Shown piece by piece: positions 13,680 to 36,326 of a stretch of DNA of 60,426 bases. The stretch's first letter is position 1. Every line of letters begins with the position of its first letter. Source of the DNA: Candidatus Avidehalobacter gallistercoris (GTDB lineage: Bacteria > Bacillota > Dehalobacteriia > UBA4068 > UBA4997); assembly GCA_018715045.1 (NCBI GenBank), contig DVMH01000018.1:1-60426 (forward strand), given 5' to 3'. Under the pieces are notes generated by a model. The model searched no databases. It saw only the letters and a program-made list of their open reading frames with translations, and was not told the DNA's origin. The position numbers were made by a program, and so were the translations under genes.

Positions 13680-13690
13680 ATGTACACTCC

Positions 13691-15541: not shown

Positions 15542-16150
15542 TCAAGCTTCGCTGCGCACACAGATAACAGGCAGCTTGGCCGCGGCGTTATAGCCCACCA
15601 GCAGCTTGTCATCGCGCAGGTCCTGCAAACGCACATAGTTATTGCCGTCCTTTTCGATCGCCTTCACGTCTTTTTCCACCCCGTTCAGGCAGATTCTAAG
15701 CTGTTTTTCCACTTCCATATCCTCCAAACCTTGTTTAATAAATTCCAGCGGGTCAATCGTGGCAGGGTAATTGTACGCACCTTTATGTACCTCCATGTGC
15801 AAATGCCGCCCAGTCACATTACCGGTTGCCCCTTCCACGCCAAGGACGGTCTGCTCTGTCACCGCCATGCCAGCTTTAACATACACCGTCTTCAGGTGTG
15901 CATACAGTGAAATATAGCCGTCCGAGTGCTTGATATATACACAGTTGCCATAGCTGCCAGAACGTCCGATTTTCAGCACCTTCCCGACGTAAATAGGATA
16001 CACCAGCCCATCTCCACCATAGCCCGCGGACATAAAATCCTGCCCGCTGTGATAACCACAACGCCAAAGCGTACCTTTCTGGCCAAAACAGGTGCCCAGC
16101 TTAAATTTATCAAAAGGATAGCGCAAAATATCACCCCGCGTTCTTTTCAT
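15542..16150 (-). CDS. M23 family metallopeptidase, particle-associated endolysin
   Basis: A 202-residue LytM/M23 peptidase, without a signal peptide, that would cut peptide cross-links in peptidoglycan. The zinc-site motifs are HSGQD (about residue 34) and HLHMEVH (about 117), with the usual YAHLKTVYV and G-rich strands between them. Residues 150-195 form a small beta segment (KDGNNYVRLQDL) like a copper amine oxidase-type or stalk domain, possibly a wall-binding part. It is the last gene of the particle cluster, and its start overlaps the previous gene by 20 bases. The ribosome binding site is weak, so the exact start is uncertain. Confidence 0.85.
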   Translation of the reverse strand: MKRTRGDILRYPFDKFKLGTCFGQKGTLWRCGYHSGQDFMSAGYGGDGLVYPIYVGKVLKIGRSGSYGNCVYIKHSDGYISLYAHLKTVYVKAGMAVTEQTVLGVEGATGNVTGRHLHMEVHKGAYNYPATIDPLEFIKQGLEDMEVEKQLRICLNGVEKDVKAIEKDGNNYVRLQDLRDDKLLVGYNAAAKLPVICVRSEA

Positions 16151-16391
16151 TATTGTCGTTCAGATTTTTACCAAAGAAGAAGCCCAACACCAACATCACC
16201 GCACTGTTGAAAAGTTCGTTTGTTTCCTGCTCATTAAGCGTTGTCACACAAAGCACGCAAACCAACGCCAGCGTTACCAGCGATTTCACATCGACCAGCC
16301 GCGCCAACCGAAATCTTATTCTCCATCTGCCGGGAACGTTCTTCTGCGGTTCATCTGCGGCCTCTGCCAAATTCTCTTTTTCGTGCATCAT
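16131..16391 (-). CDS. Small membrane protein, possible holin
   Basis: An 86-residue protein with an acidic head, a basic segment (RWRIRFRLARL) and two adjacent hydrophobic stretches (about 37-50 and 60-74) before a hydrophilic end. Its place directly before the endolysin gene suggests a holin-like partner. The start ATG overlaps the stop of the gene before it and GGAGG lies seven bases upstream. No specific holin family is recognised. Confidence 0.55.
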   Translation of the reverse strand: MMHEKENLAEAADEPQKNVPGRWRIRFRLARLVDVKSLVTLALVCVLCVTTLNEQETNELFNSAVMLVLGFFFGKNLNDNNEKNAG

Positions 16392-16648: not shown

Positions 16649-17773
16649 TTAAACACAGAACCCAAACAGAAGCCCCAGCAGTGAGGTATTCACACGATTG
16701 TTGATCGTATTATCCGTTAAAACATACAAAGTATAGTTGACGCCCCCTGAGGAATTGTAGTTAGAATTGCGCAACCAGAATGAATCTGATCTCACAACTG
16801 TGCCACCCTGCCGGTAATAATCATAAGCTGGCGTCTCATACCAAATATAAGGCGATGAACAACGGTGCGTGCCGTACAAATCACGCTCCGAGAAAATAAA
16901 AAGCTTGTCATCCGTAACCTGAGCCGTTCCGTTAGCCGCCCAGGCATAATCATAATAATCATGGTTAGCGCCCGGCAGCGCCGTCACCTTGCGCACAGTC
17001 TTAATGGCGGCCTGTAATCCCTCGTCCATCGAAGCCAGCAACGCCGGCAGTGTCTTAAGCCGCAGATCACACGTTCCCCAGTTAACAGCATCGTCCTTAT
17101 TCGGGTGTATCGGATACATGGTGGGCAGTATATCAACCAGCCCAAAGCTAATCCCGGCCTTGGTAAAATCATGCCGTGCTGTAACCAGCGGTGCCTCCGC
17201 CGGCGTGTAAAGATTATCATGCTCAAAGCCCAGAATATGTACGTCAGCCGTAGCGCCGTCCACATTGATCTTTTTTGTATCGCCAACCTTCCAACAGGTC
17301 TGCGCCAATCCATGCTCAGATACCTTGGCAATATACGCCCATGATGCCTGCGAGAGCGGTATCGGCGCCGCTACGAACCTGTGTTCGGTGTTGTCTATCT
17401 GCATTTTTACAGTATAACTGGCGTTCATATAAGTGAACTTCACCCGTGATTCTCCGATATTGTCCACTGTCAGCGTTACTTCCATACTGCTGCCTATCGT
17501 GGCCGTGCACGAGGAATCACCGCTGGTCAGACTCACATTACATCCGGACGGCCCATAAATCGTCACAAGAATTCGCGCCTTCGTTGCCAACAGGCTATAG
17601 TTATTCTCCAATACCTTAACTCTGCTAAGCAGCTGGTTGGCCAGCGTGAGTGCGTTATCTCCCAGCAGCAGCTTTTCGTCAATCGTATCGGAGTTTTCGT
17701 TAAAATCGGCAATATTGTAATAATCCTCTGCCGCCGGCTTCTTCAAATTATAATTTTTGGTATAATCCATCAC
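16649..17773 (-). CDS. Tail fibre / receptor-binding protein with DUF6273-like end
   Basis: A 374-residue tail protein. The N-terminus (NYNLKKPAAEDYYNIADFNEN) is the baseplate-attachment segment seen in many Bacillota tail fibres. A short coiled segment is at about 40-62, a beta-rich Ig-like part at 65-120, and a large C-terminal domain from about 125 with YDYAWAANG, SPYIWYETPAYDYY and SFWLRNSNYNSSGG, which look like DUF6273 (C-type-lectin-like fold). The very end, GLLFGFCV, is a divergent form of the usual GVRPAFxx ending. It overlaps the XkdU-like gene by four bases. It would bind the cell surface of the target. Confidence 0.75.
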   Translation of the reverse strand: MMDYTKNYNLKKPAAEDYYNIADFNENSDTIDEKLLLGDNALTLANQLLSRVKVLENNYSLLATKARILVTIYGPSGCNVSLTSGDSSCTATIGSSMEVTLTVDNIGESRVKFTYMNASYTVKMQIDNTEHRFVAAPIPLSQASWAYIAKVSEHGLAQTCWKVGDTKKINVDGATADVHILGFEHDNLYTPAEAPLVTARHDFTKAGISFGLVDILPTMYPIHPNKDDAVNWGTCDLRLKTLPALLASMDEGLQAAIKTVRKVTALPGANHDYYDYAWAANGTAQVTDDKLFIFSERDLYGTHRCSSPYIWYETPAYDYYRQGGTVVRSDSFWLRNSNYNSSGGVNYTLYVLTDNTINNRVNTSLLGLLFGFCV

Positions 17774-18315
17774 TCAATCACCTCTTCCCGCAAATCATGG
17801 TGGTGCAAAGCGGACAGTTCTCCATGTGTCATACCCACCAGATAGCCATACCGGTTATATAATAAATCCAAATCAAGCAAAAGATTGGCAGGCAACGTCC
17901 GCTCCAAAACGTCCTGCAAAGTCCGGAAATAACTTTTGCCAATCAGACTCAACCGCACCCGCAGCATATATTCCGCCGGCAACAGCTCAATATAATACTG
18001 ATCCTCCGGTGCTACCAGCGCCAACATCTCAACCAAACGCCGTATGGTAAAAGGCAACTGCTCCGAAAGCCGCAGCAGAACCACCTGCCGGCGCTTGCCC
18101 GCGGTGTCCATGGCGTTGGGCGACACACCCAACATCTTTTCCCAGCGGGATAGCCCATATTCCGAACAGATATATGGGAACAATTCCTGCAAAACCTGCT
18201 CATACGCCGCCCGCGCCCGATCAAATTCCGGCTGCTCCAGCCAAGAGATGCGCCCCAGCTCATTAACGCGCTGCAAAACCGGCGGCAGATAATCAAACAG
18301 CTGCTGTTCAGACAT
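17770..18315 (-). CDS. XkdU-like baseplate protein (DUF2313)
   Basis: A 181-residue protein matching the YmfQ/XkdU (DUF2313) group, which links the baseplate wedge to the fibres. Visible features are FDYLPPVLQRV at the start, the YGLSRWEKMLGV motif near residue 58 and the helical segment that follows. ATG 18315 is chosen for its spacing from AAGAGGTGAG, which lies in the end of the baseplate J gene (overlap of 8 bases). The position between baseplate J and the fibre is as in PBSX. Confidence 0.8.
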   Translation of the reverse strand: MSEQQLFDYLPPVLQRVNELGRISWLEQPEFDRARAAYEQVLQELFPYICSEYGLSRWEKMLGVSPNAMDTAGKRRQVVLLRLSEQLPFTIRRLVEMLALVAPEDQYYIELLPAEYMLRVRLSLIGKSYFRTLQDVLERTLPANLLLDLDLLYNRYGYLVGMTHGELSALHHHDLREEVIE

Positions 18316-19363
18316 TGAACTCACCTCTTATCGGCACCTCGTCGCTTAAAAGCGGCAGATTCTCAGCCGCGCCGCAGAGCGTCAGCCCGCTCACGTCGAT
18401 TATACCCTCCTCCGCCAGAATACGTGCCTCCAGCTGGCTTACGCGTACCGTTAAATGATCCTGCGCCGCCCATGTCTTGGTTAAATCAGTAAAATAGTCG
18501 TCCACCGCATTAAGCACTCGATTGGAAACATCATTCCATTCCAACCCCACAGCTAGCGTCAGCGTCATATTGATGTCAACCGTACGATAAGTCACGCCAG
18601 CTGCCGTAACCACATGGCCGATAGGAGCCAGCCCCAGCCCTTCACCCTGACTTTCCAGAGGGTCAAAAATATTTTGCACTTTAGCTACCAAAGCCGTGTC
18701 CGGCGGCGTGTGATCCGCACTAATAATCGTCAGCTTCACCGTACCGCCTCCGTTCCAGGCAGGATAAACCTTGGCAGCTCCTACGCCGGGAATAGTCAGC
18801 GCTTTCTCAATATAATCCGCTCGATTGCCGCCAAAACTCTGCTCCGTCAGGCTGACAATATAACGCTCGCGCAGCGCCTCGGTGCTTTCCTCATCCTCGC
18901 CCGGCTCAATAATATCCAAAAGTTCAGCCTCAGTCACCCCCGCCAGATATTCTACCGGAGTCATACGTCCAACCGTAGTGTTAGAGGCGCTTCCCTGCTG
19001 CTCGCAGCGAAGCAGATATTCGTTTTCAGAAAGCTCTCGTTCCACCTGCCAGCCATAATCGCCGCATAAATAACGCTGGCCGAGTGCCACAGCGCCAATA
19101 ATCCGTGCCCGTGCCCCGGCATAGGTAGCAGGGTGCGGCTCAATGCCGCGCTCCCGCGCCCGCAAACACAAATACTCGCGCTCTGCCGTGTCGGCAAAAC
19201 CGTTTTGCAAAACCTTATCCAACGCCTCGTAATAAAGAGAAAGTTGATAGGCTGCTGGCGCCAAAGCATCCCAGATAATCGAGCCCTCGCGCTTGTCCAC
19301 CAAGCTTCCCACCCGCTCCAGCATTTCCGCCATAATATTTTCATAGGTCATCTGTTCAAACAT
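18308..19363 (-). CDS. Baseplate J family protein (XkdT-like, gp47)
   Basis: A 351-residue baseplate wedge protein. The N-terminus MTYENIMAEMLERV and the segment REGSIIWDALAPAAYQLS are typical of baseplate J/XkdT, followed by NGFADTAEREYLCLRARERG. The middle motif ESTEALRERYIVSLTEQSFGGNRADY leads into IPGVGAAKVYPAWNGGGTVKL, also family-specific. ATG 19363 overlaps the stop of the preceding gene (TGATG) and GGAGGTGG lies upstream. It forms the wedge with the gp25-like protein and triggers sheath contraction in related tails. Confidence 0.88.
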   Translation of the reverse strand: MFEQMTYENIMAEMLERVGSLVDKREGSIIWDALAPAAYQLSLYYEALDKVLQNGFADTAEREYLCLRARERGIEPHPATYAGARARIIGAVALGQRYLCGDYGWQVERELSENEYLLRCEQQGSASNTTVGRMTPVEYLAGVTEAELLDIIEPGEDEESTEALRERYIVSLTEQSFGGNRADYIEKALTIPGVGAAKVYPAWNGGGTVKLTIISADHTPPDTALVAKVQNIFDPLESQGEGLGLAPIGHVVTAAGVTYRTVDINMTLTLAVGLEWNDVSNRVLNAVDDYFTDLTKTWAAQDHLTVRVSQLEARILAEEGIIDVSGLTLCGAAENLPLLSDEVPIRGEFNV

Positions 19364-19728
19364 CAAACAGCCACCTCCGTCTCCTGGCTGATATCGCCAT
19401 AAATAGTCCGCACCAAAAACTTAACGCTAAGACTCCGGTCATGGGCGGTGAAGCTGAAATCCTCCACCGCCAATATCCGATCGTCATGCAGCAGCGCCTC
19501 ACTTATGCGCCGTTCGATCTCAGGAATAACATAAGCCCGGTTCTTTCCCAAAAGGTCGTGCGTAGCCACCCCATAATCAGATGAGAAGATGGGGTAAGCT
19601 CCCTCTTCCACCTGCAAAATCAGGGTGATAGCCTGACACAATGCCGCCAGACCGTCTGTCCGTCCAGACACCAGCAATTCACTCTCATTTTCCTTCAGCG
19701 CATAAGTTTCCGTCAAATATTCCGTCAT
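19363..19728 (-). CDS. gp25-like baseplate protein (XkdS, DUF2634)
   Basis: A 121-residue protein from ATG 19728, with the DUF2634/gp25 patterns YPIFSSDYGVATHDLLG and VIPEIERRISEALLHDDRI, in which a conserved Glu and Arg stabilise the sheath initiator. The longer open frame to 19851 overlaps the tube gene and is rejected. It joins the first sheath ring to the baseplate. Contiguous with baseplate J. Confidence 0.82.
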   Translation of the reverse strand: MTEYLTETYALKENESELLVSGRTDGLAALCQAITLILQVEEGAYPIFSSDYGVATHDLLGKNRAYVIPEIERRISEALLHDDRILAVEDFSFTAHDRSLSVKFLVRTIYGDISQETEVAV

Positions 19729-19741
19729 AACGTCCGCCTCA

Positions 19742-20221
19742 TCACATACCGGAGAGAACGCCGAACTTCTCGGGTATCTCAAAATCCTCAAAAGTGAAGC
19801 GGATTTCTTCCTCCAGATATTCGTCCTCGGCGCTGAACTTAGCCAGCACACCGCCGTCCAAATTACAGTCCTTCAGGATAACGGTCTGTCTGCCCACTGT
19901 TGACACAGGATCTTCATTGGTCACCTGAATATCGAAATACATATCCTCGCCACGTTCCTTAAAACGATAAAGCAGCTCGCGAAACAGCGAGGTATTATAG
20001 TGAAAGGTCGCCTTGCCACTGCCAGTCCAACCCACACCTTTGTTGCCACGGCCCATGCGCCCCAAAATCGGCACCTGCATCTTATTCTTCTCAATCGTAG
20101 CCTCCAGGTTAATGGCCTGCATAAACTTGTAACGTTTGCCGTCGATAGTCACAAAACATTCCGCCATCGTCGAGCTGATCGCGTCCCAGGCGTTCATGGT
20201 GCCGTTCACCGAATTAGTCAT
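19742..20221 (-). CDS. Contractile tail tube protein (XkdM-like)
   Basis: A 159-residue tube protein. GTMNAWDAISSTMAECFVTIDGKRYKFMQAINLEATIEKNK (in two parts) and VGWTGSGKATFHYNTSLFRE are characteristic of XkdM. The beta-sandwich monomers stack as hexamers to form the inner tube through which DNA passes. It follows the sheath gene after 20 bases. In PBSX-type order a tail chaperone and tape-measure gene would come next, but here the gp25-like gene follows directly. Confidence 0.88.
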   Translation of the reverse strand: MTNSVNGTMNAWDAISSTMAECFVTIDGKRYKFMQAINLEATIEKNKMQVPILGRMGRGNKGVGWTGSGKATFHYNTSLFRELLYRFKERGEDMYFDIQVTNEDPVSTVGRQTVILKDCNLDGGVLAKFSAEDEYLEEEIRFTFEDFEIPEKFGVLSGM

Positions 20222-20241: not shown

Positions 20242-21540
20242 TTACGCAAAAGTAACCGTCAGATAAAGCTGCGACATCGCATTGATCACCGTCAGATAAG
20301 AACTGATAACCACAGCTTTCTTGTTATCGCCCTGTTTCACCGCTATATCCGACGCCTCAAAACTTTCAATTGCGTGCAAGCCTTCCAGTTTCCGGTAATA
20401 AGAAACGATGTCATTCCACAGGCTCACCCGGCCAGAGCTGTCATTCAGCACCACGCCCAGATACTTCTGGTAAAACAGGTTGGAAAGATCTGTCACAATC
20501 TGGTCCAGCACGCGCATAGTCTGATTAAACTTCATATCCTCACTCTGCCCGTCGCCTACGGTCAAGAGGGTATTCACATCCTCCAAAACGCGCAGCTGCT
20601 CGCCCAGTTTATGCAGGGCAATTTTGCCTCCCTGCAAAGCCGCCTGCAATTCGCTGCTCGCCACCAGCGGGATAACGTCAAACTCGCCGTCATAAACGCT
20701 GTTGGTCAGAGTAGCATTAACGGCACAGGCCGCCTCCGCACCGCACAGCCAGTAAACGATTGAGCTTTCCGGCCAGCAAGCGTCACGCACCGCATTAACT
20801 GGCGAAATGATACCCTCATAATTAGCGTCACAGCGGTAAAGCACCGTCTGAAACTTGGCCGCACTGGCGTTGCGCTGCGATCTGGTATAATTGGTAAACA
20901 ACTGCTGCACCGCTGTGTCGGTAGATAAACAACCCAGTACGTTAAAACGCACTTCTTCCAGCTTATCAAGCATCTCCTGATAAGCATCCACGCCCACGTC
21001 AGTCAGATTAGTACCTCCAGACAACGGTAAACCGGAGCTTGCCGTAAGCTCAGCGTCAGATTTCCAGCAGACATAAGCGTTATCCTGCAATTCCACCGCC
21101 GAATTCACTGCCTGTGCATCAACCTCCTGCCCATCCAGATAAGTCGCCACCATAAAGGCGCCCTCAGCCTCGCTCACCACAATGCTCAGGTCGTTGCCGC
21201 GCACACCGCCGTATTTTGCAGTACAAAGCGCATTAGCCGCAGCCTCTCCCGCGTTCAGCCGGTAAAAATAGCAGCCTGCCGCCCGCACGAACAAATCACG
21301 CAGGCCTTTCATCTCCTCACTGGCATAGCCATAGCCGAAATACGCCTGGCTGTTCTTACGGAAATCACTCGCCGAAAGATAAAACACCTCGCCCGAAGGC
21401 CCCCAGTCAAGCTCCAGCCCCAGTGCGGCAATACCCCGTTCCGAAAGCTCCGAACTCACTTTATTCTCTGCCGAAACGTTAACGTAAACGCCCGGCAAAA
21501 CCTTGTTCTGCGTCACAAAACTTCCGCCATCAAAAGACAT
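20242..21540 (-). CDS. Contractile tail sheath protein (XkdK-like)
   Basis: A 432-residue sheath subunit. The N-terminal KVLPGVYVNVSAENKV is the usual strand-exchange arm, ALGLELDWGPSGEVFYLS and YGGVRGNDLSIVV follow, and SPVNAVRDACWPESSIVYWL belongs to the core near residue 255. The C-terminal QLYLTVTFA is a typical short strand that inserts into the neighbouring subunit. ATG 21540 is chosen over GTG 21549 because TGAGGTGAG is then well placed. It shows that the particle has a contractile tail. Confidence 0.9.
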   Translation of the reverse strand: MSFDGGSFVTQNKVLPGVYVNVSAENKVSSELSERGIAALGLELDWGPSGEVFYLSASDFRKNSQAYFGYGYASEEMKGLRDLFVRAAGCYFYRLNAGEAAANALCTAKYGGVRGNDLSIVVSEAEGAFMVATYLDGQEVDAQAVNSAVELQDNAYVCWKSDAELTASSGLPLSGGTNLTDVGVDAYQEMLDKLEEVRFNVLGCLSTDTAVQQLFTNYTRSQRNASAAKFQTVLYRCDANYEGIISPVNAVRDACWPESSIVYWLCGAEAACAVNATLTNSVYDGEFDVIPLVASSELQAALQGGKIALHKLGEQLRVLEDVNTLLTVGDGQSEDMKFNQTMRVLDQIVTDLSNLFYQKYLGVVLNDSSGRVSLWNDIVSYYRKLEGLHAIESFEASDIAVKQGDNKKAVVISSYLTVINAMSQLYLTVTFA

Positions 21541-21550
21541 TTCGCTCACC

Positions 21551-22786: not shown

Positions 22787-23767
22787 CTATTCGATCGCAG
22801 TGCCGTCGGCCAAACCTGTAATCGAAGCATGCAGGAAAGCTGGGCCGTGGGCCAAGCCAATCTGACCGTAAATCTGGATTTTGTCCGCCGCGCCGGTTTT
22901 GGCCAGTTCTTCTTCAAACAGCACGCCCTTGCCCGGCACCGCTTGGAATACCGGGGCAATATGCGCCACATCAGCAATAAGAATACTGTCAGAGGGCATA
23001 AAGCGATTCCAGCAAACACCCACCCGGCAGAAGTCAGTCTCAATTTCGGTAATATTCAGACCGCCCACATTGCGTTCCGCCGGAGCAAACAGAGTAGAGC
23101 CTACAAACTGCGTCGCATAGATTTCGGAAAGCGCCTGCTTCTGATAGGCAGGAAGAAACATCACCATGTTGCTGAAATAAGCGCCTGCCGCTGCCATCTT
23201 GCGAAAAATTTGCTGCAACAGATTCTTGCTTAGGGTTGCGCCTTTCGCATCAATGGTAGTGCCGCCGGAGCAAAGCTCCAAAAGGCCGCGCGTCTTGTTG
23301 GCCACACTGCTGCCGGTAGATTTCTGATACTTGCCGTTAATGAAGCTGTGCTCCACGTCACGGGCAATTTTGACCAGCTTGTGCTGCACCTGAAACGCCC
23401 TTTCGTCAGCCAGGCTCTCCGCCAGATCGGCGGTATTCAGCCCAGCCAGACGCCCGGTGTTGCTCTGCTTGGCATAGCTCAGGTTGATTACCTCCTGATG
23501 AATTTGCACCACGTTGCTCTCCTGGCTTCTAACCGCCATGCTCGCCGTCGGCGCGGTCACCGAAGCCTCCTCGGAGATTTCAGGCTGCGTAGCCTCCGGA
23601 TAATCGTAGAGTACCGCCGTCGGAAATTCAAAATTAGTCGTCTGACGCCCTCCGGAAAGCCCGCCGATCATCGAAAGCAGCGGTGTCTGCAAAGAATCCG
23701 CTGTAAAAAGCTCGCCAGCGTAATTAGGCAAATTCCATACTGTGCCCACATTAGTTACTTGTGCCAT
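22787..23767 (-). CDS. Major capsid protein (SU10-like, DUF5309)
   Basis: A 326-residue HK97-fold capsid protein of the SU10-like/DUF5309 group. Typical stretches are GTVWNLPNYAGELFTADSL and TPLLSMIGGLSGGRQ at the start, SYAKQSNTGRLAGLN with the nearby DLAESLADERAFQVQHKLVKI, and RDVEHSFINGKYQ. The C-terminal half carries VGGLNITEIETDF and RFMPSDSILIADVAHIAPVF. GGGAGGAC precedes ATG 23767. The protein is complete, without a stop or gap, and the scaffold gene is directly upstream. A capsid gene shows that this is not only a headless tailocin. Confidence 0.85.
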   Translation of the reverse strand: MAQVTNVGTVWNLPNYAGELFTADSLQTPLLSMIGGLSGGRQTTNFEFPTAVLYDYPEATQPEISEEASVTAPTASMAVRSQESNVVQIHQEVINLSYAKQSNTGRLAGLNTADLAESLADERAFQVQHKLVKIARDVEHSFINGKYQKSTGSSVANKTRGLLELCSGGTTIDAKGATLSKNLLQQIFRKMAAAGAYFSNMVMFLPAYQKQALSEIYATQFVGSTLFAPAERNVGGLNITEIETDFCRVGVCWNRFMPSDSILIADVAHIAPVFQAVPGKGVLFEEELAKTGAADKIQIYGQIGLAHGPAFLHASITGLADGTAIE

Positions 23768-23871: not shown

Positions 23872-23920
23872 CCTCACCGATGCGCTCCCTGCCGCCGCAC
23901 CAGCCTATCCTGTCCAAGAG

Positions 23921-25204: not shown

Positions 25205-25227
25205 TTTTACGTTCCTCCATAAAAAAC

Positions 25228-26459: not shown

Positions 26460-26487
26460 ATTTCAACCCCTCTTTCTGACCTACGCA

Positions 26488-26922: not shown

Positions 26923-26930
26923 CGTTCACC

Positions 26931-27878: not shown

Positions 27879-27883
27879 AGCGA

Positions 27884-29332
27884 TCACTCCCCGCCTGCAG
27901 CAATTTGCGCCTGTTCGCTCTGTTCAGCCTTAAGACGCGCCAGTTCGCCGCTAACGTCGTTCACCCAGGGATGCTGCGCTACTATGGCCGCGGTGGAAAG
28001 CAAGCCCTGCGATTTTACGCAGTTTTCAATAACCTCACTCTCATCTACCATAATGTCACGATTAAAAATCAGCCTCCAGCTTTCACTCATGTAATCGCCC
28101 TGACCGGTGTTGAACAAATACGCTTTCACAAACCACAGCAGATCTTCGAAAGCGGCCTGCAATTCCGCCTCAAAGTCGTTGGCGTCCAGCGTAATGTCGC
28201 TATACATGGATTTAATATTCAGCTCATTAGCAGCGCGATAGCCCTTTTCCAGCTTGGCATCAAATCCCATACCGTTTTCGATGATCGCATCTTTCAACAG
28301 TTTGATGACAGCCTCGAAATTCGCAGCGTCCACATTGACGGAAAGAGTGTCGATACCGCCGCCCGCACCGTCCACTGTTTTCACTTTCACCGCGCCGTAA
28401 GCAGCCAGATTGTGGCGAAACTCATCCAAATCGGTACCATCATAATTTTTGATGACCAGTATAGTGTTGTGTGCGTCTTCCTCCAGGGCATTCTGAAACT
28501 GCGAAAGCGCCTGATTCAGCGCGTCCTGCAACCCCTTAACACGCAGCAGCAGCGGCTGCTCACGTGCATTCAGCTTGAAAGGCACAAGCGGCACTCGGCT
28601 CCAGTTCACCCGCTCAAAACTGCCGTCAGGCAGTTTGTGGATAAGATACGCATGGTGGCAGTCGTCCTCCGGAAGCAGTTTCCCCTGCTCATAACGAAAA
28701 CAATGAACTCCAGCAAGATCAAAAATCTCCACCATGTCAATAAGAGATAGCGTGCCGTTTACCCATCCTTCCAATTGATAAAAACGCAGCGCACATTCCA
28801 GGCGGCTGTGCTCGGCGTCAGCCCAAAACGGCAGTATCTCATGCCCAGGGAAACTCCGAAAACGCAGCGCTCCCTCCGCGTCAATATAAGGGTAAAGCCA
28901 GGCAACTCCTTCATTGTAGCATGTCTTGCCCAAACGCTTCAGCTGGCGCATAAACCTCCGGTCAAAAATCCGCTTCAGCGCTGCGTCAAAGCCAGGATTT
29001 TCCACCTCCCAGCTTATAGGCTGCCCCAGCAGATAATCAGCTTTCTGATTGACTAACTTGCCGTATTGATTGTTCACCAGCCGGTTGTTCGGCAGGTTGC
29101 GAACGGCCTCTTGTTGCCCTCCCCGGCCGATCACGGTGCGCTCGCGTTGCAAAATATCATGCTCGCCCACAAAATAAGCCTCGCCGGTAAGCATGCGCTC
29201 CCGCGCCTGGCTTCCAAGCCAGCGCGCCAGTTCCCATTCCATGATTTGCAAGTCGCCTGGTTCTATGCTGCACGGCAGCCGGGCCTGCATACCATGGCGT
29301 AAATTCTCGCATATCTCCCGAAAACTCCGCAT
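27884..29332 (-). CDS. Portal protein (SPP1 gp6-like)
   Basis: A 482-residue portal protein from ATG 29332, the ATG at the best distance from GGGAGG. Family features include GEAYFVGEHDIL, NNRLVNNQYGKLVNQKADYLLGQP, CYNEGVAWLYPYIDAEG and ELNIKSMYSDITLDANDFE. Twelve copies form the DNA channel at the capsid vertex and dock the terminase. Unlike in PBSX, where capsid genes follow, the next genes here are tail hub genes. It is the first gene behind the second promoter module. Confidence 0.88.
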   Translation of the reverse strand: MRSFREICENLRHGMQARLPCSIEPGDLQIMEWELARWLGSQARERMLTGEAYFVGEHDILQRERTVIGRGGQQEAVRNLPNNRLVNNQYGKLVNQKADYLLGQPISWEVENPGFDAALKRIFDRRFMRQLKRLGKTCYNEGVAWLYPYIDAEGALRFRSFPGHEILPFWADAEHSRLECALRFYQLEGWVNGTLSLIDMVEIFDLAGVHCFRYEQGKLLPEDDCHHAYLIHKLPDGSFERVNWSRVPLVPFKLNAREQPLLLRVKGLQDALNQALSQFQNALEEDAHNTILVIKNYDGTDLDEFRHNLAAYGAVKVKTVDGAGGGIDTLSVNVDAANFEAVIKLLKDAIIENGMGFDAKLEKGYRAANELNIKSMYSDITLDANDFEAELQAAFEDLLWFVKAYLFNTGQGDYMSESWRLIFNRDIMVDESEVIENCVKSQGLLSTAAIVAQHPWVNDVSGELARLKAEQSEQAQIAAGGE

Positions 29333-29355
29333 TATCATTCCTCCCATCATATTTT

Positions 29356-29395
29356 GTCAGAAAAAAAGACGGCTCATCGCCGCCTGTTTTCTGAC
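29356..29395 (-). terminator. Hairpin after terL, terminator and/or 5' leader of the portal mRNA
   Basis: An inner stem AGGCGGC/GCCGTCT with loop GATGA is followed by seven T, a Rho-independent terminator for terS-terL. An outer stem (GTCAGAAAA with TTTTCTGAC) encloses it. The predicted start of the portal transcript falls on the first bases of this hairpin, so it may also cap and protect that mRNA. Confidence 0.75.
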
Positions 29396-29401
29396 AATGC
29401 C

Positions 29402-29435
29402 ATATTACCACATCACCTGCCGGACATTCCATGAC
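29402..29435 (-). promoter_or_regulatory. Promoter module A, before the portal gene
   Basis: On the minus strand GTCATGGAATGTCCGGC (29435-29419), 11 bases, then TAATAT (29407-29402). It matches module B before terS in 16 of 17 bases and in spacing. The place of the -35 hexamer is GGAATG, unlike the sigma-A consensus, which points to an activator or another sigma factor. Confidence 0.6.
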
Positions 29436-29438
29436 GTC

Positions 29439-30695
29439 TTAAAAGCTGTACACATCGCCCATCAGCAAATCAGAAACGGCATATCGCATAGCATCCATCA
29501 GATGATTGTTTTCGTCCGCAGGATAGTTCAGATACCGCCCCTCGCGGTCGCGCTCCCAGCAATAGCAGCTAATCTCCCGCAGAAAATTCCGGCAGCAGGG
29601 TCGTACTATAATATCAAAATCCCGCAGATAATCAATACCCGCCATAACGCTCCCCGGCCCTTTTCTGGCCGCTCGCAGGCGATATAAGCCAAGCTCGCGC
29701 AAACGGTCAATGCTTTTTGGCTCGGCCGCATCAGCCCGTATTTTCTCCTTGGCATAACCGCGCCGGGTCACGGCCTCGGCAATTTGTTCGTTGGACATAC
29801 CTTTATGATATATCTCGTCAAACACGTAAAGCCGCCGCGACGCCAAATCCACCAAACCGCAAAACAACGCTGTTTCGTCGTTCACATAACCAAAATCCAG
29901 TCCAAAGGCAGTTTGCACTCCCGGCTTGGCCGCCACCTCGCGCGGGTCAAACTCAGATTCCTGCCAGCGCTCATAAACCAGGCCTCCGGCAACGCCCCAT
30001 TCACCCAGTCCGGCCACACGGTAACGCGCCGGCTCCCGCTCGGCCATCCGCTCAAACATACGGCGGTCAGCCGCGTCCAAAAATTCATTACAGCGCCAGT
30101 CCACCGTCATCGCCAGCACATCAGGGTCAGGCGGCGCGTCAAAAAAACGCCGCTTAAGCCAATGCCGCTCATTCCAGGGATTAAACGTCAGTGTCAGCTG
30201 TTTAAAAAGCCCCGGTGGCGCCGCTCCGCGCACACTCTCGTCCAGCATGGCAAAATCCTCTTCCCGGCTGATCTCAAACGCCTCTTCCAGCCATACGAAA
30301 CACAGAGCGCCCTGCTCCGCCACAATAGAGGTCAGCTTCTGAGGGTCGTCCAGCCCACGAAAATACACTTTCTGCCCGGTCGGCAAGTAGGTCAGCTCCA
30401 GCGGCTCCTCCCGAAAACGCCAGTCCGCCGCCACACCAAATTGACGTATCGCCCACTTAAGCTCCGCATAACAGGAATTTTTCAGTGAACGGTACGTCCG
30501 CCGTACCACTAATGCGTTCGCCTGCGGCATCTTCAATATCCGCCAAATCAGATTCAGCGCTGTTGTCTTGGACTTCTTCGACGCACGAGATCCCTTAACC
30601 ACCCGGTAACGCCCGCAAAACTGCCAAAACTCGCGGTAGCCTGCGCCCACCAAAGCCGGCAGATAAATCTCCCGCACTTTTTCATTGAACCTCAC
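29439..30695 (-). CDS. terL: Terminase large subunit (PBSX type)
   Basis: A 418-residue packaging motor from GTG 30695, just behind GAGGAGG and overlapping the terS stop; a longer start at 30731 has no site. The ATPase part has a Walker A-like KGSRASKKSKT (34-44) and Walker B CFVWLEEA (132-139). The RNase H-like nuclease part shows FGLDFGYVND (about 245), RADAAEPKSI (about 305) and HLMDAMRYAVSDLL near the end. All acidic residues expected for cleavage appear present. PBSX-type terminases package by headful, and PBSX itself packages host DNA, which matters for the function of this cluster. Confidence 0.9.
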   Translation of the reverse strand: MRFNEKVREIYLPALVGAGYREFWQFCGRYRVVKGSRASKKSKTTALNLIWRILKMPQANALVVRRTYRSLKNSCYAELKWAIRQFGVAADWRFREEPLELTYLPTGQKVYFRGLDDPQKLTSIVAEQGALCFVWLEEAFEISREEDFAMLDESVRGAAPPGLFKQLTLTFNPWNERHWLKRRFFDAPPDPDVLAMTVDWRCNEFLDAADRRMFERMAEREPARYRVAGLGEWGVAGGLVYERWQESEFDPREVAAKPGVQTAFGLDFGYVNDETALFCGLVDLASRRLYVFDEIYHKGMSNEQIAEAVTRRGYAKEKIRADAAEPKSIDRLRELGLYRLRAARKGPGSVMAGIDYLRDFDIIVRPCCRNFLREISCYCWERDREGRYLNYPADENNHLMDAMRYAVSDLLMGDVYSF

Positions 30696-31138
30696 TTCAG
30701 CTCCTCCTCGCCCAGTATTCGCACAACACATTCGCCGTTATCCCTGCCGCCCTTATCGCCGAAAAGCCTCTGATTACGCCCCAAAAGCTCCGCCGCTCTG
30801 GTGCGCTCGCTCACTTTGGGAAGCATTCCCACGCCCTCCTCCGCGCCCTTGCCGTCACGCACCTCGCCCCGCATAACCGCCGTCAAAAATCGCAGGATTT
30901 CCTCGCCGTCGGCCAACGCCGCCATATCCCCGCCAAATCCGGCCACAGTAGCCGTGCAAAGCCGTCTGATCTCCTGCTGAGCCGCCGGTTTTTGCAATAT
31001 TCTGGCTGCCCGCCCCGCCGCCAAACGCTCTTTATAGCCTGCGCTCACCGCAGCCTTGGTTCCATCCCAAAGCCGCACATATTCACGGCAAAAGGCCATT
31101 TCCCGCTCAGAAAGTTTATTAGCCAATCTATTGTCCAC
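30692..31138 (-). CDS. terS: Terminase small subunit
   Basis: A 148-residue DNA-recognition subunit from GTG 31138, with GGGGGTG upstream; a start further upstream (ATG 31171) would lie at the predicted transcription start and is rejected. LSEREMAFCREYVRLWDGTKAAVSAGY is the helix-turn-helix pattern of the Terminase_2/XtmA group (quoted in part), and RAARILQKPAAQQEIRRL follows. The C-terminal part ERTRAAELLGRNQRLF is the usual TerL-binding or oligomerisation segment. It is the first gene of the cluster. Confidence 0.85.
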   Translation of the reverse strand: MDNRLANKLSEREMAFCREYVRLWDGTKAAVSAGYKERLAAGRAARILQKPAAQQEIRRLCTATVAGFGGDMAALADGEEILRFLTAVMRGEVRDGKGAEEGVGMLPKVSERTRAAELLGRNQRLFGDKGGRDNGECVVRILGEEELK

Positions 31139-31174
31139 GCTATCACCCCCAAAATACTTCTCTGACGTCATAGC

Positions 31175-31208
31175 ATTATAACACCGTCCCCGCCGGACAT
31201 TCCACGAC
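31175..31208 (-). promoter_or_regulatory. Promoter module B, before terS
   Basis: GTCGTGGAATGTCCGGC (31208-31192), 11 bases, then a perfect TATAAT (31180-31175). The module begins right after the T-run of the upstream terminator. The same motif and spacing recur before the portal gene. Confidence 0.65.
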
Positions 31209-31240
31209 AAAAAAGCGGCTCGGATTGCTCCGAACCGCTG
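31208..31240 (-). terminator. Terminator of the D-glutamate operon
   Basis: AGCGGTTCGGA and TCCGAGCCGCT pair over 11 positions (one G-U) with a GCAA tetraloop, followed by six T (31214-31209). It insulates the particle cluster from the operon upstream. Confidence 0.92.
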
Positions 31241-31264: not shown

Positions 31265-32113
31265 TTACGCCCGCAGTTTCTCATGCAGTGCGTCAATAAT
31301 CTCCTGCTCGATCACCATATCAAACCCATCAACCGAGCAGGTAAATTCGTGGGTCACGCCGTCAACGCTGCCCACCTTAACCGTCCGCGCGATAAAATCG
31401 CGGCACTCGTCAAAATCAGCCAGCAAATCTTCTCCATGCAGTTTGGAAAGCCATGCCGCCAGTCCATACGCGCCCCAGTTGGAAACGCTGGCGATAATCA
31501 GGTTCTCCACCTCTACCGTGCAGGGCGCCAACTCCAGACGCTCGGTGATCTCTTTTGCCAGATTGCCCATGCCAATCTCATTGCCGCCATCGCCCACACC
31601 AAAGGTAGCAATGCCGCGTTCCTTGGCCAGCTTCACCAATTCGTCCAGAGGCGCGGTAAACTCATCGATAGACACACCGCGCATATTGGCATATTTGCCC
31701 TCAATATTAACACCACAACGCTCAATAGATATCACAGCCTGCGGATTGTGAGTGTCCAGTAAATGGATAAAATCCGGCTTTGCTGCGTCAAACGCCGCAT
31801 ATTCCACCGGAATTCCCGTCGGCTCAAAAAAGTCGCGGCAAAACTCGTCTGTTACAATGCAGGGCGCAAAGCCCAGCTTCTGCAACGCCCGCGCCAAAAC
31901 ATAAGTTCCCACCGGACCATCAGTTTCAGCATAACCAGCCACATAAAAGCCGGTGGTCAACAAGATCTCTCCTCTGGGCAGTGCCAGCAATTTGGCCGCC
32001 GCCTGCTTGCAGTAATCATCCGGCAAAAACTGCCGTAAAACCTGCATACCCCGCTGCGAGTGGCGCAAAATCACATCCTCGATGGTTTCCGTCTTTTTCA
32101 TCTGCTCAGTCAT
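31265..32113 (-). CDS. DUF4392 protein, D-glutamate cyclase C-terminal-domain homologue
   Basis: A 282-residue soluble enzyme from ATG 32113 (GGACGGGAGG upstream, inside the end of pxpA). ALPRGEILLTTGFYVAGYAETDGPVGT in halves, then GVSIDEFTAPLDELVK and IATFGVGDGGNEIGMGNLAKEI, are hallmarks of DUF4392. The same domain forms the C-terminal half of animal D-glutamate cyclase (DGLUCY), which turns D-glutamate into 5-oxo-D-proline and water. Here it is a stand-alone gene in an operon with pxpABC, a DUF1445 gene and a D-amino acid aminotransferase, so a role in D-glutamate removal is very plausible. It is the last gene before the terminator. Confidence 0.8.
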   Translation of the reverse strand: MTEQMKKTETIEDVILRHSQRGMQVLRQFLPDDYCKQAAAKLLALPRGEILLTTGFYVAGYAETDGPVGTYVLARALQKLGFAPCIVTDEFCRDFFEPTGIPVEYAAFDAAKPDFIHLLDTHNPQAVISIERCGVNIEGKYANMRGVSIDEFTAPLDELVKLAKERGIATFGVGDGGNEIGMGNLAKEITERLELAPCTVEVENLIIASVSNWGAYGLAAWLSKLHGEDLLADFDECRDFIARTVKVGSVDGVTHEFTCSVDGFDMVIEQEIIDALHEKLRA

Positions 32114-32873
32114 CCTCCCGTCCTCCCCGCTTGATCTCAATTCCTGCATCCTGCAATGCCACCCGAATTTTCTGCACAAAGACCAGCGCCTTGGAACTGT
32201 CCCCATGCACGCAAATAGATTCCGCTTTCACCTTGATATCCTCGCCGGAAATTGCTCGCACCAGCCCGGTCTTCACCATGCGAACGACTCGTGAGATCGC
32301 CTCTTCCTCATCATCGATCATCGCGCCCGGCATTTTCCGCGGTACCAGCGTGCCGTCCGGCTGATAGGCCCGGTCGGCAAACACCTCGCAGATAAACGAC
32401 AGACCACATTCTGCCGCCGCCCGCTGCAGTTCACTGCCGTCCGGCGCTAAAATGGACAGTGCGGGATCAAAATCCCGCGCCGCCCGGCAGATAGCTCCCG
32501 CCATCGCGGCATTTTTCACCGCCATATTATACATAGCGCCGTGCGGCTTCACATGCGAAAGTTTAATGCCCTCTGCCCGGCAGAAGCCGTCCAGCGCCCC
32601 CAGCTGATATAACACCAAATCATGCAGCTCCATCGGGGATAAGTCCATATTCCGCCGTCCAAACCCCTGCAAATCGGCAAATCCAGGATGGGCGCCCACC
32701 GCAGCTCCTGCCGCTTTCGCCAACCGCACTGTTTTAGCCATCACCTGCGGATCAGAAGCGTGCATACCGCAGGCAACATTAGCCGAGGAAACATATTTAA
32801 TAACCTCATCGTCCAGCCCCAGCGTATAACGGCCAAAACTCTCGCCCAAATCGCAGTTCAAATCCACCCGCAT
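32106..32873 (-). CDS. pxpA: 5-oxoprolinase subunit PxpA (LamB/YcsF family)
   Basis: A 255-residue protein with the family opening VDLNCDLGESFGRYTLG and SSANVACGMHASDPQVM, then VGAHPGFADLQGFGRR and LSHVKPHGAMYNMAV, and near the end AESICVHGDSSKAL. PxpA with PxpBC hydrolyses 5-oxoproline to L-glutamate using ATP in the cytoplasm. It is separated from pxpBC by the DUF1445 gene and its end overlaps the DUF4392 gene by eight bases. Confidence 0.92.
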   Translation of the reverse strand: MRVDLNCDLGESFGRYTLGLDDEVIKYVSSANVACGMHASDPQVMAKTVRLAKAAGAAVGAHPGFADLQGFGRRNMDLSPMELHDLVLYQLGALDGFCRAEGIKLSHVKPHGAMYNMAVKNAAMAGAICRAARDFDPALSILAPDGSELQRAAAECGLSFICEVFADRAYQPDGTLVPRKMPGAMIDDEEEAISRVVRMVKTGLVRAISGEDIKVKAESICVHGDSSKALVFVQKIRVALQDAGIEIKRGGREDD

Positions 32874-32892
32874 ATCAATCTCTCCCGTCCGC

Positions 32893-33678
32893 TTAGTATT
32901 TCAGCGCCAGATTCTTCACGTCCAAAACCAGCATATGCCCAGGCGCATGGGTGATCACAATTTCCGGCTTGCTCTGCATAACCACGGCCTGCGGGGTCAC
33001 CCCGCAAGGCCAGAAAACAGGCGTCTCGCCCGGCTTAATAGTCACCGCATCACCGAAATCCGGCTTGTTGATGTCATGAATACCGATCGCCTCCGGGTCG
33101 CCGATATGAATGGGCGCGCCATGCACACGCGGCATCGCCCCAGTAATCTGCACAGCCTGCGGGATTGCCTCGCCCGCCAGCGGCCGCATACTCACTACCA
33201 TCTTACCAGCAAAGCACCCCGCTGGCCGGCAGTCAATATTCGTCACATACATAGGTACGTTCCGCCCCTCTTCGATATGCCGCACGGGAATCCCTGCCGC
33301 CAGCAGATCAGCCTCAAACGAGAAACTGCACCCGATAATGAAGCTGACAAAATCATCACGCCACAGAGCCTCAATATCAGTATATTCGCCCGCCAGTTCC
33401 CCCCGTTCATATACACGATACTTGGGGAAATCCTTGGCAATATCGCAGTCAGCCGCCATATAATGCAACTCGCGGCTCCCTGCATCGGCAACCTCCAGAA
33501 TTGGACAGGGTTTAGGATTCCGCTGCGCAAACAGCAGAAAATCATACGCCAGCGCTTTCGGCAAAATCACCAAATTTGCCTGCGCATATCCGGCGCACAT
33601 ACCAGCCGTTGGACCGGTAATTTCCCCCACCCGGATAAGATGCCTGAGCTCGCGCGGGCTAACCTTACTGTAATCCAT
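32893..33678 (-). CDS. DUF1445/UPF0317 putative hydro-lyase, D-glutamate cyclase N-terminal-domain homologue
   Basis: A 261-residue protein from ATG 33678 (GAGGTGTG seven bases before). GPTAGMCAGYAQANLVILP is the typical N-terminal motif, followed by CPILEVADAG, IGCSFSFEADLLAAGIPVRHI and NVPMYVTNIDCRPAGCFAGK. The C-terminal FWPCGVTPQAVVMQSKP and ITHAPGHMLVLD are also conserved. This family matches the N-terminal half of animal D-glutamate cyclase. Being located between pxpC and pxpA, and with a DUF4392 gene in the same operon, it probably acts on D-glutamate or 5-oxoproline. Confidence 0.82.
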   Translation of the reverse strand: MDYSKVSPRELRHLIRVGEITGPTAGMCAGYAQANLVILPKALAYDFLLFAQRNPKPCPILEVADAGSRELHYMAADCDIAKDFPKYRVYERGELAGEYTDIEALWRDDFVSFIIGCSFSFEADLLAAGIPVRHIEEGRNVPMYVTNIDCRPAGCFAGKMVVSMRPLAGEAIPQAVQITGAMPRVHGAPIHIGDPEAIGIHDINKPDFGDAVTIKPGETPVFWPCGVTPQAVVMQSKPEIVITHAPGHMLVLDVKNLALKY

Positions 33679-33699
33679 CGCACACACCTCGCTCTATGC

Positions 33700-34578
33700 T
33701 TATTCCACCTTCACCAACAGGAATTTCACTTTCGTTCCTGGCAAAGCCTGCGCCAAAAGCGGCAGGTCCTTGCTTATCACCGTGCCAATCTTGGCATAGC
33801 CACCGGTAGTCTGCCGGTCGGCCAACAGCACAATAGGCTGGCCAGAATTCGCCACTTGAATTGAGCCAAACGCAATACCATCCGAGACAATATCCGTTCC
33901 GCCTGGCGTCTGCAAATTGCAGCCGTCAAGACGGCAGCCCATGCGGTCACTTTGCGGCGACACAACATACTCCGCCGCGTTAAAAGCTGCGTACACCTCA
34001 GTCGGGAACATATCCTGCTGCGGCCCCGCCACATAGCGCAAAACTATCTCCCGTTGGTATACCTGCGGGGGCAGCTCCCTAGCCTCGCCGCCGTTATCAG
34101 GCAAAGCCGCCAGCTCGTCGCCCGCTTTCAGCGCCCGGCCTAAAAAACCGCCTATGCCGCACTTCAGATTAGTAGAACGGCTGCCCATGACCAAAGGCAC
34201 ATCAAAGCCGCCGCCCACAGCCAAATAAGTGCGAAGACCGTTTTTCACCATGCCAAACTGCAAAACGTCTCCAGCGGAGACAGCAAACACTTTGCTTCGC
34301 GGCGCAGGCGCACCATTCAAAATCGCCCCCATATCCGCCCCGGTAATGGCGCATCGCCCGGCGGAGAGTATTTCCAGCTTAGCTCCAGTGATAGTCATCT
34401 CCAGCACCGCAGCTTCCCCCGGATTGGAAAGCAGCCAGTTCGCCTCACGATAAGCCGCCCTATCCACTACGCCGCTGGGGCTCATACCGAAGCGCTGATA
34501 GCCAAATCGTCCTTTGTCCTGCACGGTAGAAAGCGCTCCCGGCTGAATAACGCGGCAAAATTTCCTGGCAACAGTCAT
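33700..34578 (-). CDS. pxpC: 5-oxoprolinase subunit PxpC (KipA/biotin-dependent carboxylase-like)
   Basis: A 292-residue KipA/AHS2 protein. Characteristic parts are IQPGALSTVQDKGRFGYQRFG, GVVDRAAYREANWLLSNP and LEMTITGAKLEI at the start, with SQSDRMGCRLDG and SDGIAFGSIQVANSGQPIVL, then ADRQTTGGYAKIGTVISKDL at the end. It forms the PxpBC complex. The start overlaps the pxpB stop (ATGA). Confidence 0.92.
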   Translation of the reverse strand: MTVARKFCRVIQPGALSTVQDKGRFGYQRFGMSPSGVVDRAAYREANWLLSNPGEAAVLEMTITGAKLEILSAGRCAITGADMGAILNGAPAPRSKVFAVSAGDVLQFGMVKNGLRTYLAVGGGFDVPLVMGSRSTNLKCGIGGFLGRALKAGDELAALPDNGGEARELPPQVYQREIVLRYVAGPQQDMFPTEVYAAFNAAEYVVSPQSDRMGCRLDGCNLQTPGGTDIVSDGIAFGSIQVANSGQPIVLLADRQTTGGYAKIGTVISKDLPLLAQALPGTKVKFLLVKVE

Positions 34579-35318
34579 CGCGCCACCTCCCCGTCACACA
34601 GTTGGGGCTGCCAGCGTCCGGCGGCCACATCAGCAGCCAGATGGTCAAATGCTTTCGCCGAAATAGGTAAAAAGCGCACAAAATCCCCCGCCTGATAAAA
34701 AATCGGTTCAGCACGGTCAGGATCATAAAGCGGCAGAGGCGTTTTGCCAATCAAACGCCAGCCACCCGGCGACGCCAGGGGGTAAATACCGGTCTGCGCC
34801 CCGCCGATACCGACGCTGCCCGCCTCAATTCTAACGCGCGGCGTTTGCAGACGCGGCGCATGGATCTTTTTATCCAAACCGCCCAAATAGGCAAAGCCGG
34901 GCAAAAAGCCCAGCATATAGATCTTATAATCGCGTCCGCTGTGCAGACGGATAATTTCGGCAGCCGAAAGTCCACAAAGCTGCTCCATATCAGCCATATC
35001 AGGGGCAAATTCCCCTTCATAGCACACAGGAATCGCCCAGATACGCTTTTGTTCTGATGAGCGCTCAGAGAGCACAGCCAGCAAATGTTCAACCGCCGCA
35101 CTAGCAGCAGTAAAGTCAGTTGCGCCAGCCTCCCAGCTCACCAATAGCGAGGCATACGCGGGCACCACGTCCTCAAGCCAGGGGTAACCTGCCGCCAACA
35201 CCGCATCGCAAAGCGCCCGCACCCGGTCGTTCAGCTTTTCGTTGACCTCACGGCCAAATTCCACCAGCAGGGCGCAATCCCCCACCGGCAGAATTTTCAC
35301 TTCTGTTTGTTTACTCAT
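34575..35318 (-). CDS. pxpB: 5-oxoprolinase subunit PxpB (KipI family)
   Basis: A 247-residue KipI/AHS1 protein. It has VGDCALLVEFGREVNEKLND at the start, IPVCYEGEFAPDMADMEQLC near 95-115, the conserved LGFLPGFAYLGGLDKKIHAP, and SVGIGGAQTGIYPLASPGGW towards the end. It partners PxpC. Twelve bases separate it from the aminotransferase gene. The Bacillus homologue KipI also inhibits the KinA kinase, but in this operon 5-oxoproline hydrolysis is the better reading. Confidence 0.92.
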   Translation of the reverse strand: MSKQTEVKILPVGDCALLVEFGREVNEKLNDRVRALCDAVLAAGYPWLEDVVPAYASLLVSWEAGATDFTAASAAVEHLLAVLSERSSEQKRIWAIPVCYEGEFAPDMADMEQLCGLSAAEIIRLHSGRDYKIYMLGFLPGFAYLGGLDKKIHAPRLQTPRVRIEAGSVGIGGAQTGIYPLASPGGWRLIGKTPLPLYDPDRAEPIFYQAGDFVRFLPISAKAFDHLAADVAAGRWQPQLCDGEVAR

Positions 35319-35330
35319 AGTTATATCAGA

Positions 35331-36170
35331 TTACTTATCGGTCGCTGCATAGAATTCGTCCAGCAACGCCTGCTGCAAACGACCCACCAATTCCGGCTGC
35401 TTTCCGCCCACAGGCTTACCGTCCACACTCTCGGCCAGCATACAAAGCTGACTGCTGCTAGTCACAATAACCTCCTCGGCGTTCAGCAATTCGTCCACAG
35501 TATAAGGCGTTTCGTTAACCGGAATGCCCAGCCTCTTGCACATCGCGATCAGATGGGCGCGCGCAATGCCGGGCAGGATCAGATTATCAGCCGGAGCTGT
35601 TTTCAGCATACCGTCCTGAATAATATGTACATTGCTGTGGGCACACTCTGTCACGCGGTCGCCGCGGTGGAAAATCGTCTCATCACACCCCTGAGATTCG
35701 GCATTCTGTGCCGCCATCACGCTGGGGATCAGATTCAGTGTCTTTATGTTGCAGTGGAAGAAACGCGTATCTTCCGCCGTCACCAGTTTCAGCTTCCTAT
35801 CCATATCTTTCAGCTCAGCCGGCTTCAACATGATCCACATATTAGCGGGAGTATCAGGGAAAGCGTGATTGCGTATACCTGTGCCGCGGGTCACCTGCCA
35901 GTAAACAAACATATTGCCGCTTTCCATTTTTTGCAGCATCTCGTTCAGCAGCGCTTTTACTTCATCCTTTGTGTAAGGGATTTTAATTTTCAGCAGACCC
36001 GCACTGTTAAAAAAGCGATCAATGTGCTCGTCGATCGCAAAAATTTTATAGTTTCTGGCCAGCGTCGCGTCATAAACGCCGTCACCAAAATAGCAGACCC
36101 GATCGTTCATCGGGATCATCATCTTGTCAAGTTCATCAAATTTCCCGTTGTAGTAACCCAAAGTTTTCAT
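35331..36170 (-). CDS. dat: D-amino acid aminotransferase (class IV, PLP)
   Basis: A 279-residue fold-type IV aminotransferase from ATG 36170 (AAGGAGAT upstream). VCYFGDGVYDATLARN and EHIDRFFNSAGLLKIKIPYT mirror Bacillus Dat. The substrate-binding Arg/His in YWQVTRGTGIRNHAFP and the PLP-binding Lys in CNIKTLNLIPSVMA match the D-alanine transaminase type rather than IlvE. It would exchange D-alanine plus 2-oxoglutarate with D-glutamate plus pyruvate. As first gene of the operon it could feed D-glutamate into the cyclase and PxpABC or draw on it. Confidence 0.88.
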   Translation of the reverse strand: MKTLGYYNGKFDELDKMMIPMNDRVCYFGDGVYDATLARNYKIFAIDEHIDRFFNSAGLLKIKIPYTKDEVKALLNEMLQKMESGNMFVYWQVTRGTGIRNHAFPDTPANMWIMLKPAELKDMDRKLKLVTAEDTRFFHCNIKTLNLIPSVMAAQNAESQGCDETIFHRGDRVTECAHSNVHIIQDGMLKTAPADNLILPGIARAHLIAMCKRLGIPVNETPYTVDELLNAEEVIVTSSSQLCMLAESVDGKPVGGKQPELVGRLQQALLDEFYAATDK

Positions 36171-36297
36171 ATACCATATCTCCTTACATATTAAATTGCA
36201 GCCCTGCCAAATAAAAATAAGCACAAGAAAACACGCGCAACAGACGCCATTGTCTCTTATGCTCGATTTTATCGCAACAAAGCTACGTATAGCTTGA

Positions 36298-36326
36298 ATT
36301 ATACACAATTAGCAAACATTTGTCAA
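36298..36326 (-). promoter_or_regulatory. Consensus promoter of the D-glutamate operon
   Basis: TTGACA (36326-36321), 17-base spacer, TATAAT (36303-36298): a perfect sigma-A match. The leader is about 120 bases long. The gene for an Lrp/AsnC regulator ends about 65 bases upstream, so that regulator could act here. Confidence 0.88.

Follow-up and report, generated by a model that had tools for sequence, protein, structure and literature searches.

Matched probable late promoters of a domesticated contractile-tail gene cluster in Candidatus Avidehalobacter gallistercoris and its genus, and a probable Ltr-type activator encoded in trans

The 60,426-nt window analyzed here, one contig of the 1.45-Mb, about 95% complete genome of Candidatus Avidehalobacter gallistercoris (G000), carries phage-like packaging and structural genes on its minus strand, with one promoter module ahead of terS and a second between the terL stop codon and the portal gene. 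The likeness of these two modules raises the question of what switches on both transcripts. The original prediction was that both answer to a single activator or alternative sigma factor, encoded outside the window, through an element of the form GTCrTGGAATGTCCGGC. Both copies are present exactly as described, GTCGTGGAATGTCCGGC at 31208-31192 and GTCATGGAATGTCCGGC at 29435-29419 (both on the minus strand), as is the 11-base gap separating them from the -10 hexamers TATAAT (31180-31175) and TAATAT (29407-29402), and the window holds no third copy even when up to three mismatches are allowed. The terS module (31175..31209, minus strand) consists of a direct repeat with a 10-bp period, TGTC-GTGGAA-TGTC, and the extended -10 element TGTTATAAT; it has no -35 hexamer and occupies a place that is conserved in relatives. 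The portal module (29402..29436, minus strand) combines the repeat CGTC-ATGGAA-TGTC with the extended -10 element TGGTAATAT and begins directly 3' of the terL stop codon, a position likewise conserved in relatives. Two such matches arose in 6 of 100 shuffled controls, making the pair alone only mildly unlikely, and its weight therefore comes from comparison with relatives rather than from the window alone. Genome-wide statements rest on pattern searches; one of these returned a third exact copy, GGAATGTCCGGC, at C16:25661, which was rejected as a regulatory site and attributed to chance because it sits in the coding frame of spoIVB.

Alignment of the intergenic regions of relatives resolved the conserved signal to a 10-bp direct repeat, TGTC-N6-TGTC, and, 14-15 bp downstream of it, a -10 hexamer with TG-N in front (extended -10); no -35 box is part of the signal. 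The core of this signal carries ~1.3 bits per column, versus 0.24 in its flanks. Among the eight genus genomes with the cluster, which like the rest of the genus are assemblies of varying completeness, seven have the module at both places, and the eighth (G003), in which the genes are split, has it before terS, terL and xkdN. Both 14- and 15-bp spacings occur in G003, so spacing does not strictly track activator clade. Searches of nine genus genomes with the pattern GTC-N-T-N4-TGTC-N11/12-TG-N-TA-N2-AT (14 fixed bases) yielded 17 exact matches, versus ~0.25 expected as estimated from the fixed bases, all of them in phage genes (15 in the cluster and two in prophages); since the pattern was shaped on the cluster sites, the fully independent matches are the prophage copies in G001:C13 and G006:C32 and two extra-genus copies (L176 and L190). 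No exact module was found in viral contigs. Matches with one mismatch in G001:C31, G007:C95, G007:C51 and G000:C18 were rejected for want of an extended -10 at the set spacing, and the first three fall within coding frames. The motif is thus kept in relatives where the genes are kept, and, as predicted, one and the same signal precedes the packaging and the structural genes.

The reading of GGAATG as a -35 hexamer fared differently. In this species the hexamer does lie 17 bp ahead of the -10, as it would if an alternative sigma factor recognized it. However, it is not conserved (G001 and G007 carry GTCCTGTTTTGTCCG and G003 carries GTCATTGTTTGTCCG), the aligned relatives indicate that GGAA is not essential to the module, and spacing varies by 1 bp, whereas the TGTC repeat and the sigma-A-type extended -10 are conserved.

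Some further features of the modules were recorded. In all genomes, the base 4 positions after the -10 is always A and the one 8 positions after it almost always T (TAnnAT-gnTAnnrT), a pattern that the model proposed below leaves without explanation. In G003, the terS homolog is separate from the rest of the cluster and shares its contig with a TypA-like gene; it has its own module copy (G003:C189:3771, L157). In a single species, G008, the interval from terL to the portal promoter contains degenerate GGGAGCGAGGGGCGGAAA-type repeats over ~400 bp (L072:1830-2250). The same genome has a one-mismatch module outside the main cluster (G008:C5:22236-22269, L156), before a holin gene (PF04531) and an S8-peptidase-like gene; PF04531 holins occur in no other genus genome.

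The minus-strand genes at ~15.5-31.1 kb encode TerS, TerL, an SPP1-like portal, a scaffold, the major capsid protein, a head-tail adaptor, the sheath, XkdN- and XkdQ-like tail proteins, baseplate, fiber and an M23 endolysin, which, judged by gene content, constitute a complete contractile-tail head, tail and terminase set. In the order of transcription, terS (30692..31138, Terminase_2) has a likely GTG start at 31138, as read from the sequence, and is followed by terL (29439..30731, Terminase_3/3C), the SPP1 gp6-like portal gene (27884..29332), for which comparison with relatives indicates a conserved ATG start at 29332, the major capsid gene (22787..23767), the contractile tail sheath gene (20242..21549), baseplate genes of gpW-, gpJ- and gpI-like type (17770..19851) and, at 15542..16391, genes for the M23-type endolysin and a small protein with two transmembrane segments (assigned by eye), a holin candidate. 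Within 15542-31138, where some genes are without a family match, none was recognized as coding for an integrase, a replication function or a phage repressor. Downstream lies a fixed cellular flank of rluD-like and rarA/mgsA-like genes (12333..14638, minus strand), with a phosphoglycerate mutase-like gene also among the downstream cellular genes, and upstream, in this species, are D-glutamate cyclase, LamB/YcsF, carboxyltransferase and aminotransferase genes (31265..36308, minus strand). Elsewhere in the window, positions 59113-59203 hold an ordinary S10-Clostridia ribosomal protein leader (Rfam RF03136).

The cluster might be no more than a decaying prophage, with the modules as relics of its late promoter. 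The lack of recognized integrase, repressor and replication genes would suit such an origin, as would the absence of the cluster from one genus genome: the capsid gene is single-copy in eight of the nine genus genomes, and neither G004 nor any of the 32 other relatives searched has it. Its inheritance points the other way. Gene order is common to seven further genus genomes. The upstream flank differs; downstream, the same flank follows in every retrieved sequence that extends so far, that of G003 being cut short by the end of its contig. Between G000 and G002, the pair covered by the dN/dS and dS comparison, the cluster genes tested show dN/dS of 0.04-0.13 (0.04-0.06 for capsid and portal), and their dS (0.60-0.95) equals that of flanking genes (0.73-0.92). 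These values indicate that the cluster has been inherited vertically beside rluD-rarA under purifying selection. Together with the intact gene order and with the conservation of both promoters where the flanks are not conserved, they make simple decay highly improbable.

Hairpins adjoin both promoters. That of the upstream cellular operon (31214..31239, minus strand) is terminator-like and has a T-run directly adjoining the terS module, which it probably insulates. A second terminator-like hairpin, followed by T7, lies in the portal leader ~20 nt downstream of the -10 (29367..29385, minus strand; -25.3 kcal/mol, z -4.3); leader folds in the other genus subgroup are nothing special. In related prophages, 22 of 34 leaders (L162-L241) have a terminator-like hairpin in the stretch from the late promoter to terS, against a mean of 2.35 in random windows. 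Such leader hairpins may insulate the late genes or impose a need for read-through, and antitermination at late leaders is possible; a search for a clear Q-like antitermination factor found none.

A stand-alone gene matching phrog_36 is present outside the cluster in all nine genus genomes; in G000 this candidate activator gene lies next to fba (C9:17483-17902, minus strand), and a fructose-bisphosphate aldolase gene is close by in at least four of the activator loci. Two of the stand-alone genes match phrog_36 with E=3.5e-20 and 2.3e-24. The predicted proteins, of about 130-150 aa, present Sigma70_r4 matches and a sigma-region-4-like helix-turn-helix (HTH), with region 4-like matches only and no sigma region 2. 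The proposal of one trans-acting activator encoded outside the window is therefore largely supported, while its alternative sigma factor variant, the least probable of the readings considered here, was rejected on conservation and domain content. The stand-alone gene does not occupy the position immediately upstream of terS that its prophage homologs do, and the module motif is absent from its own promoter. Searches of G002, G003 and G008 found no intact prophage-type regulator, which leaves the stand-alone gene as the sole candidate there. Co-occurrence, homology and repeat geometry are the basis for assigning the late promoters to this putative regulator.

In the eight loci examined, the activator gene is divergent from a gene encoding a repressor with HTH_3 (PF01381) and Peptidase_S24 (PF00717) domains, and the same arrangement is seen in G003; in G000 this S24/CI-like repressor gene lies at C9:18106-18762 (plus strand). 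All aligned repressors share the Ala-Gly, Ser and Lys residues required for RecA-stimulated self-cleavage. The divergent region of G000 contains an exact GTTGC-N7-GCAAC palindrome, one of three such sites in the genome, beside the TTGACG/TATATT promoter of the activator gene. Operator palindromes were seen by eye in at least several genus genomes, the other aligned regions showing similar repeats, some of them imperfect. From this arrangement we infer that the repressor may bind the palindromes and that DNA damage may be the inducer. G004, an assembly of ~190 contigs with no capsid or TerL match, keeps the repressor/activator pair.

Late regulators of this family are known to work through repeats. 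Phage phi13 Ltr depends on repeats in the 3' end of the gene that encodes it, Alt of TP901-1 binds four imperfect direct repeats between -76 and -32, and in other phages the direct repeats at which Ltr-type regulators act precede the late promoters (PMC13123087). Several TerL relatives, from other clostridial families, have a small phrog_36-matching gene directly upstream of terS, and the 3' end of the prophage phrog_36-type gene carries a tandem repeat and an extended -10. A profile built from prophage late regulators located the gene in 40 of 80 loci, some of the matches being weak. Repeat statistics on the 34 loci with the expected regulator-to-terL distance revealed period-10 repeats in 14 (null mean 2.5, maximum 6), perfect 7-mers in eight (null 0.1, maximum 2) and an extended -10 in 28, with periods 12-15 at background and periods 8, 9 and 11 at most weakly raised. 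Half-sites vary from phage to phage, as they should if every regulator is specific for its own repeat.

These prophage loci also bear on whether Spo0A, or another host regulator that recognizes TGTC half-sites in tandem, could place the cluster under sporulation or stationary-phase control. The genome contains a Spo0A-like gene (L003), Spo0A boxes can be tandem, and the gene transfer agents (GTAs) of other bacteria use host response regulators. Yet the Spo0A 0A box is TGTCGAA, not the TGTC[CAG]T and TGTCCG half-sites observed here, and comparable repeats adjoin phage late-regulator genes in other families, so that we regard control by Spo0A or a similar host protein as very unlikely.

Resident prophages offer another source of a regulator. 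Prophages in five genus genomes, including one on C17 in G000, encode phrog_36 regulators, accompanied in the genus by TGTCCG-type half-sites, and the 10-bp module also precedes tail genes and replication-type genes in some genus prophages. The late regulators of co-resident intact prophages might therefore drive the cluster promoters, and the cluster would then depend on a helper, as a satellite does. The late promoter of the C17 prophage, however, has a period of 9 bp rather than 10 (TTGTCCGTTTTGTCCG), and the module is kept in G002, G003 and G008, the genomes in which no intact prophage-type regulator was detected. We consider helper dependence unlikely on this evidence, and in G000 the C17 late regulator is a less likely activator than the stand-alone gene. 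The C17 element, a second prophage with its own phrog_36 regulator and late promoter (G000:C17:36290-36694; L246:1840-2080), carries TGTGCTATAAT in that promoter, followed by a strong hairpin. The module copies before phage replication-type genes number four (G005:C79:7145-7178, G006:C1:152026, G006:C32:5128 and G001:C13:160266), two exact and two diverged, as if answering to the same activator. The presence of modules at prophage replication and tail promoters suggests that the regulon may exceed the cluster.

Taken together, we consider it likely that the two modules are the late promoters of a domesticated contractile-tail cluster served in trans by an Ltr-type activator, which is in turn controlled by an S24/CI-like repressor, and that the product is GTA- or PBSX-like. 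In the off state, the repressor would occupy GTTRC-N7-GYAAC palindromes and hold the activator promoter off, and without activator both late promoters, which are devoid of a -35 box, would be silent. DNA damage would lead to RecA-stimulated self-cleavage of the repressor and to synthesis of the activator. We infer, from homology and repeat geometry, that the phrog_36/Ltr-type protein would bind as a dimer to TGTC-N6-TGTC, at about -43 to -30, in place of a -35 box, and would recruit sigma-A polymerase to both extended -10 promoters. A single input would thereby switch on packaging (terS-terL) and structural genes together, through a regulator whose gene, just upstream of terS in phages, would here be a stand-alone chromosomal gene.

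As to the particle, capsid, portal, terS and terL are all present, where a tailocin would have no capsid, portal or terminase, and their retention under selection argues against a tailocin. The region 15542-31138 pairs head-tail and packaging genes with no recognized integration or replication genes, and the G000-G002 comparison points to vertical inheritance and purifying selection, as in a GTA. Some loci lie apart from the cluster: the regulator throughout the genus, with a putative functional link, and terS on another contig in G003. TerS is 82-98 aa long and devoid of the N-terminal half in G001, G005, G006 and G007, whereas it measures about 150 aa in G000, G002 and G008, the TerS of the window retaining its N-terminal half; a TerS lacking that half is reported for GTAs (PMC12946183), TerS without a DNA-binding domain being a GTA trait. 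The absence of recognized replication genes, the vertical inheritance, the apparent distribution over more than one locus and the short TerS of those four genomes would fit packaging of host DNA by a GTA or PBSX-like particle.

This type of late promoter is already a known kind. The candidate activator resembles Ltr/RinA/ArpU regulators (PHROG 36) in its small size, its sigma-region-4-like HTH, the direct repeats abutting the late promoter, and the packaging and structural genes proposed here as targets. In phages, though, the gene lies just upstream of terS and one promoter gives one late transcript (PMC13123087). Here it maps to a separate chromosomal locus, and terS-terL and the portal operon each have a promoter of their own, the two being matched. 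In Caulobacter, the LexA-like repressor RogA acts via inverted repeats in their promoter to repress the activator pair GafYZ, which act in trans on a GTA cluster promoter whose -35 is degenerate (PMC9632790, PMC11150451). The layout is alike, with a repressor and inverted repeats, a trans activator and a promoter with a poor -35, but the proteins are unrelated, the host belongs to another phylum, and a single Ltr-type activator and a CI-like HTH and S24 repressor would be involved. No IHF or GafZ counterpart was identified. Bacillus subtilis PBSX keeps its repressor and its sigma-like activator Xpf beside the late operon, whereas the switch proposed here lies away from the late genes. PBSX is likewise a defective contractile-tail element with a terminase and XkdN/XkdQ-like genes, and packages about 13 kb of host DNA (PMC12946183). 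The Faecalibacterium FpGTA is also a gut clostridial, genus-conserved GTA-like element, and its genes lie in more than one locus; its TerS has no obvious DNA-binding domain, and a short TerS is found here in G001, G005, G006 and G007. It is podovirus-like and the passages on it name no regulator, as against a contractile tail and a candidate regulator here (PMC12946183).

Most probably, the cluster is GTA- or PBSX-like and is governed by a split repressor/activator switch similar to RogA/GafYZ. A narrower reading, which we advance only tentatively, is that of a contractile-tail GTA of a gut clostridial genus in which DNA damage acts on a CI-like repressor and an Ltr-type activator, split off and encoded in trans. 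This switch would have evolved independently of RogA/GafYZ but with a similar layout, and some resident prophages, with the same operator on their replication genes, may also respond to it. The literature searched, with most subscription papers outside it, yielded no description of a split switch in a Gram-positive domesticated element. A genus-wide GTA candidate would add to PBSX and FpGTA, the only Gram-positive GTA or GTA-like systems named in PMC12946183. More useful is the testable control circuit, comprising a repressor, an activator, an operator and two target promoters. Beyond the genus, the results suggest a general late-promoter code of many clostridial prophages, in which a regulator gene is followed by a ~10-bp tandem repeat, an extended -10, often a leader terminator, and terS, and which could be used for pairing regulators with promoters and for finding inducers.
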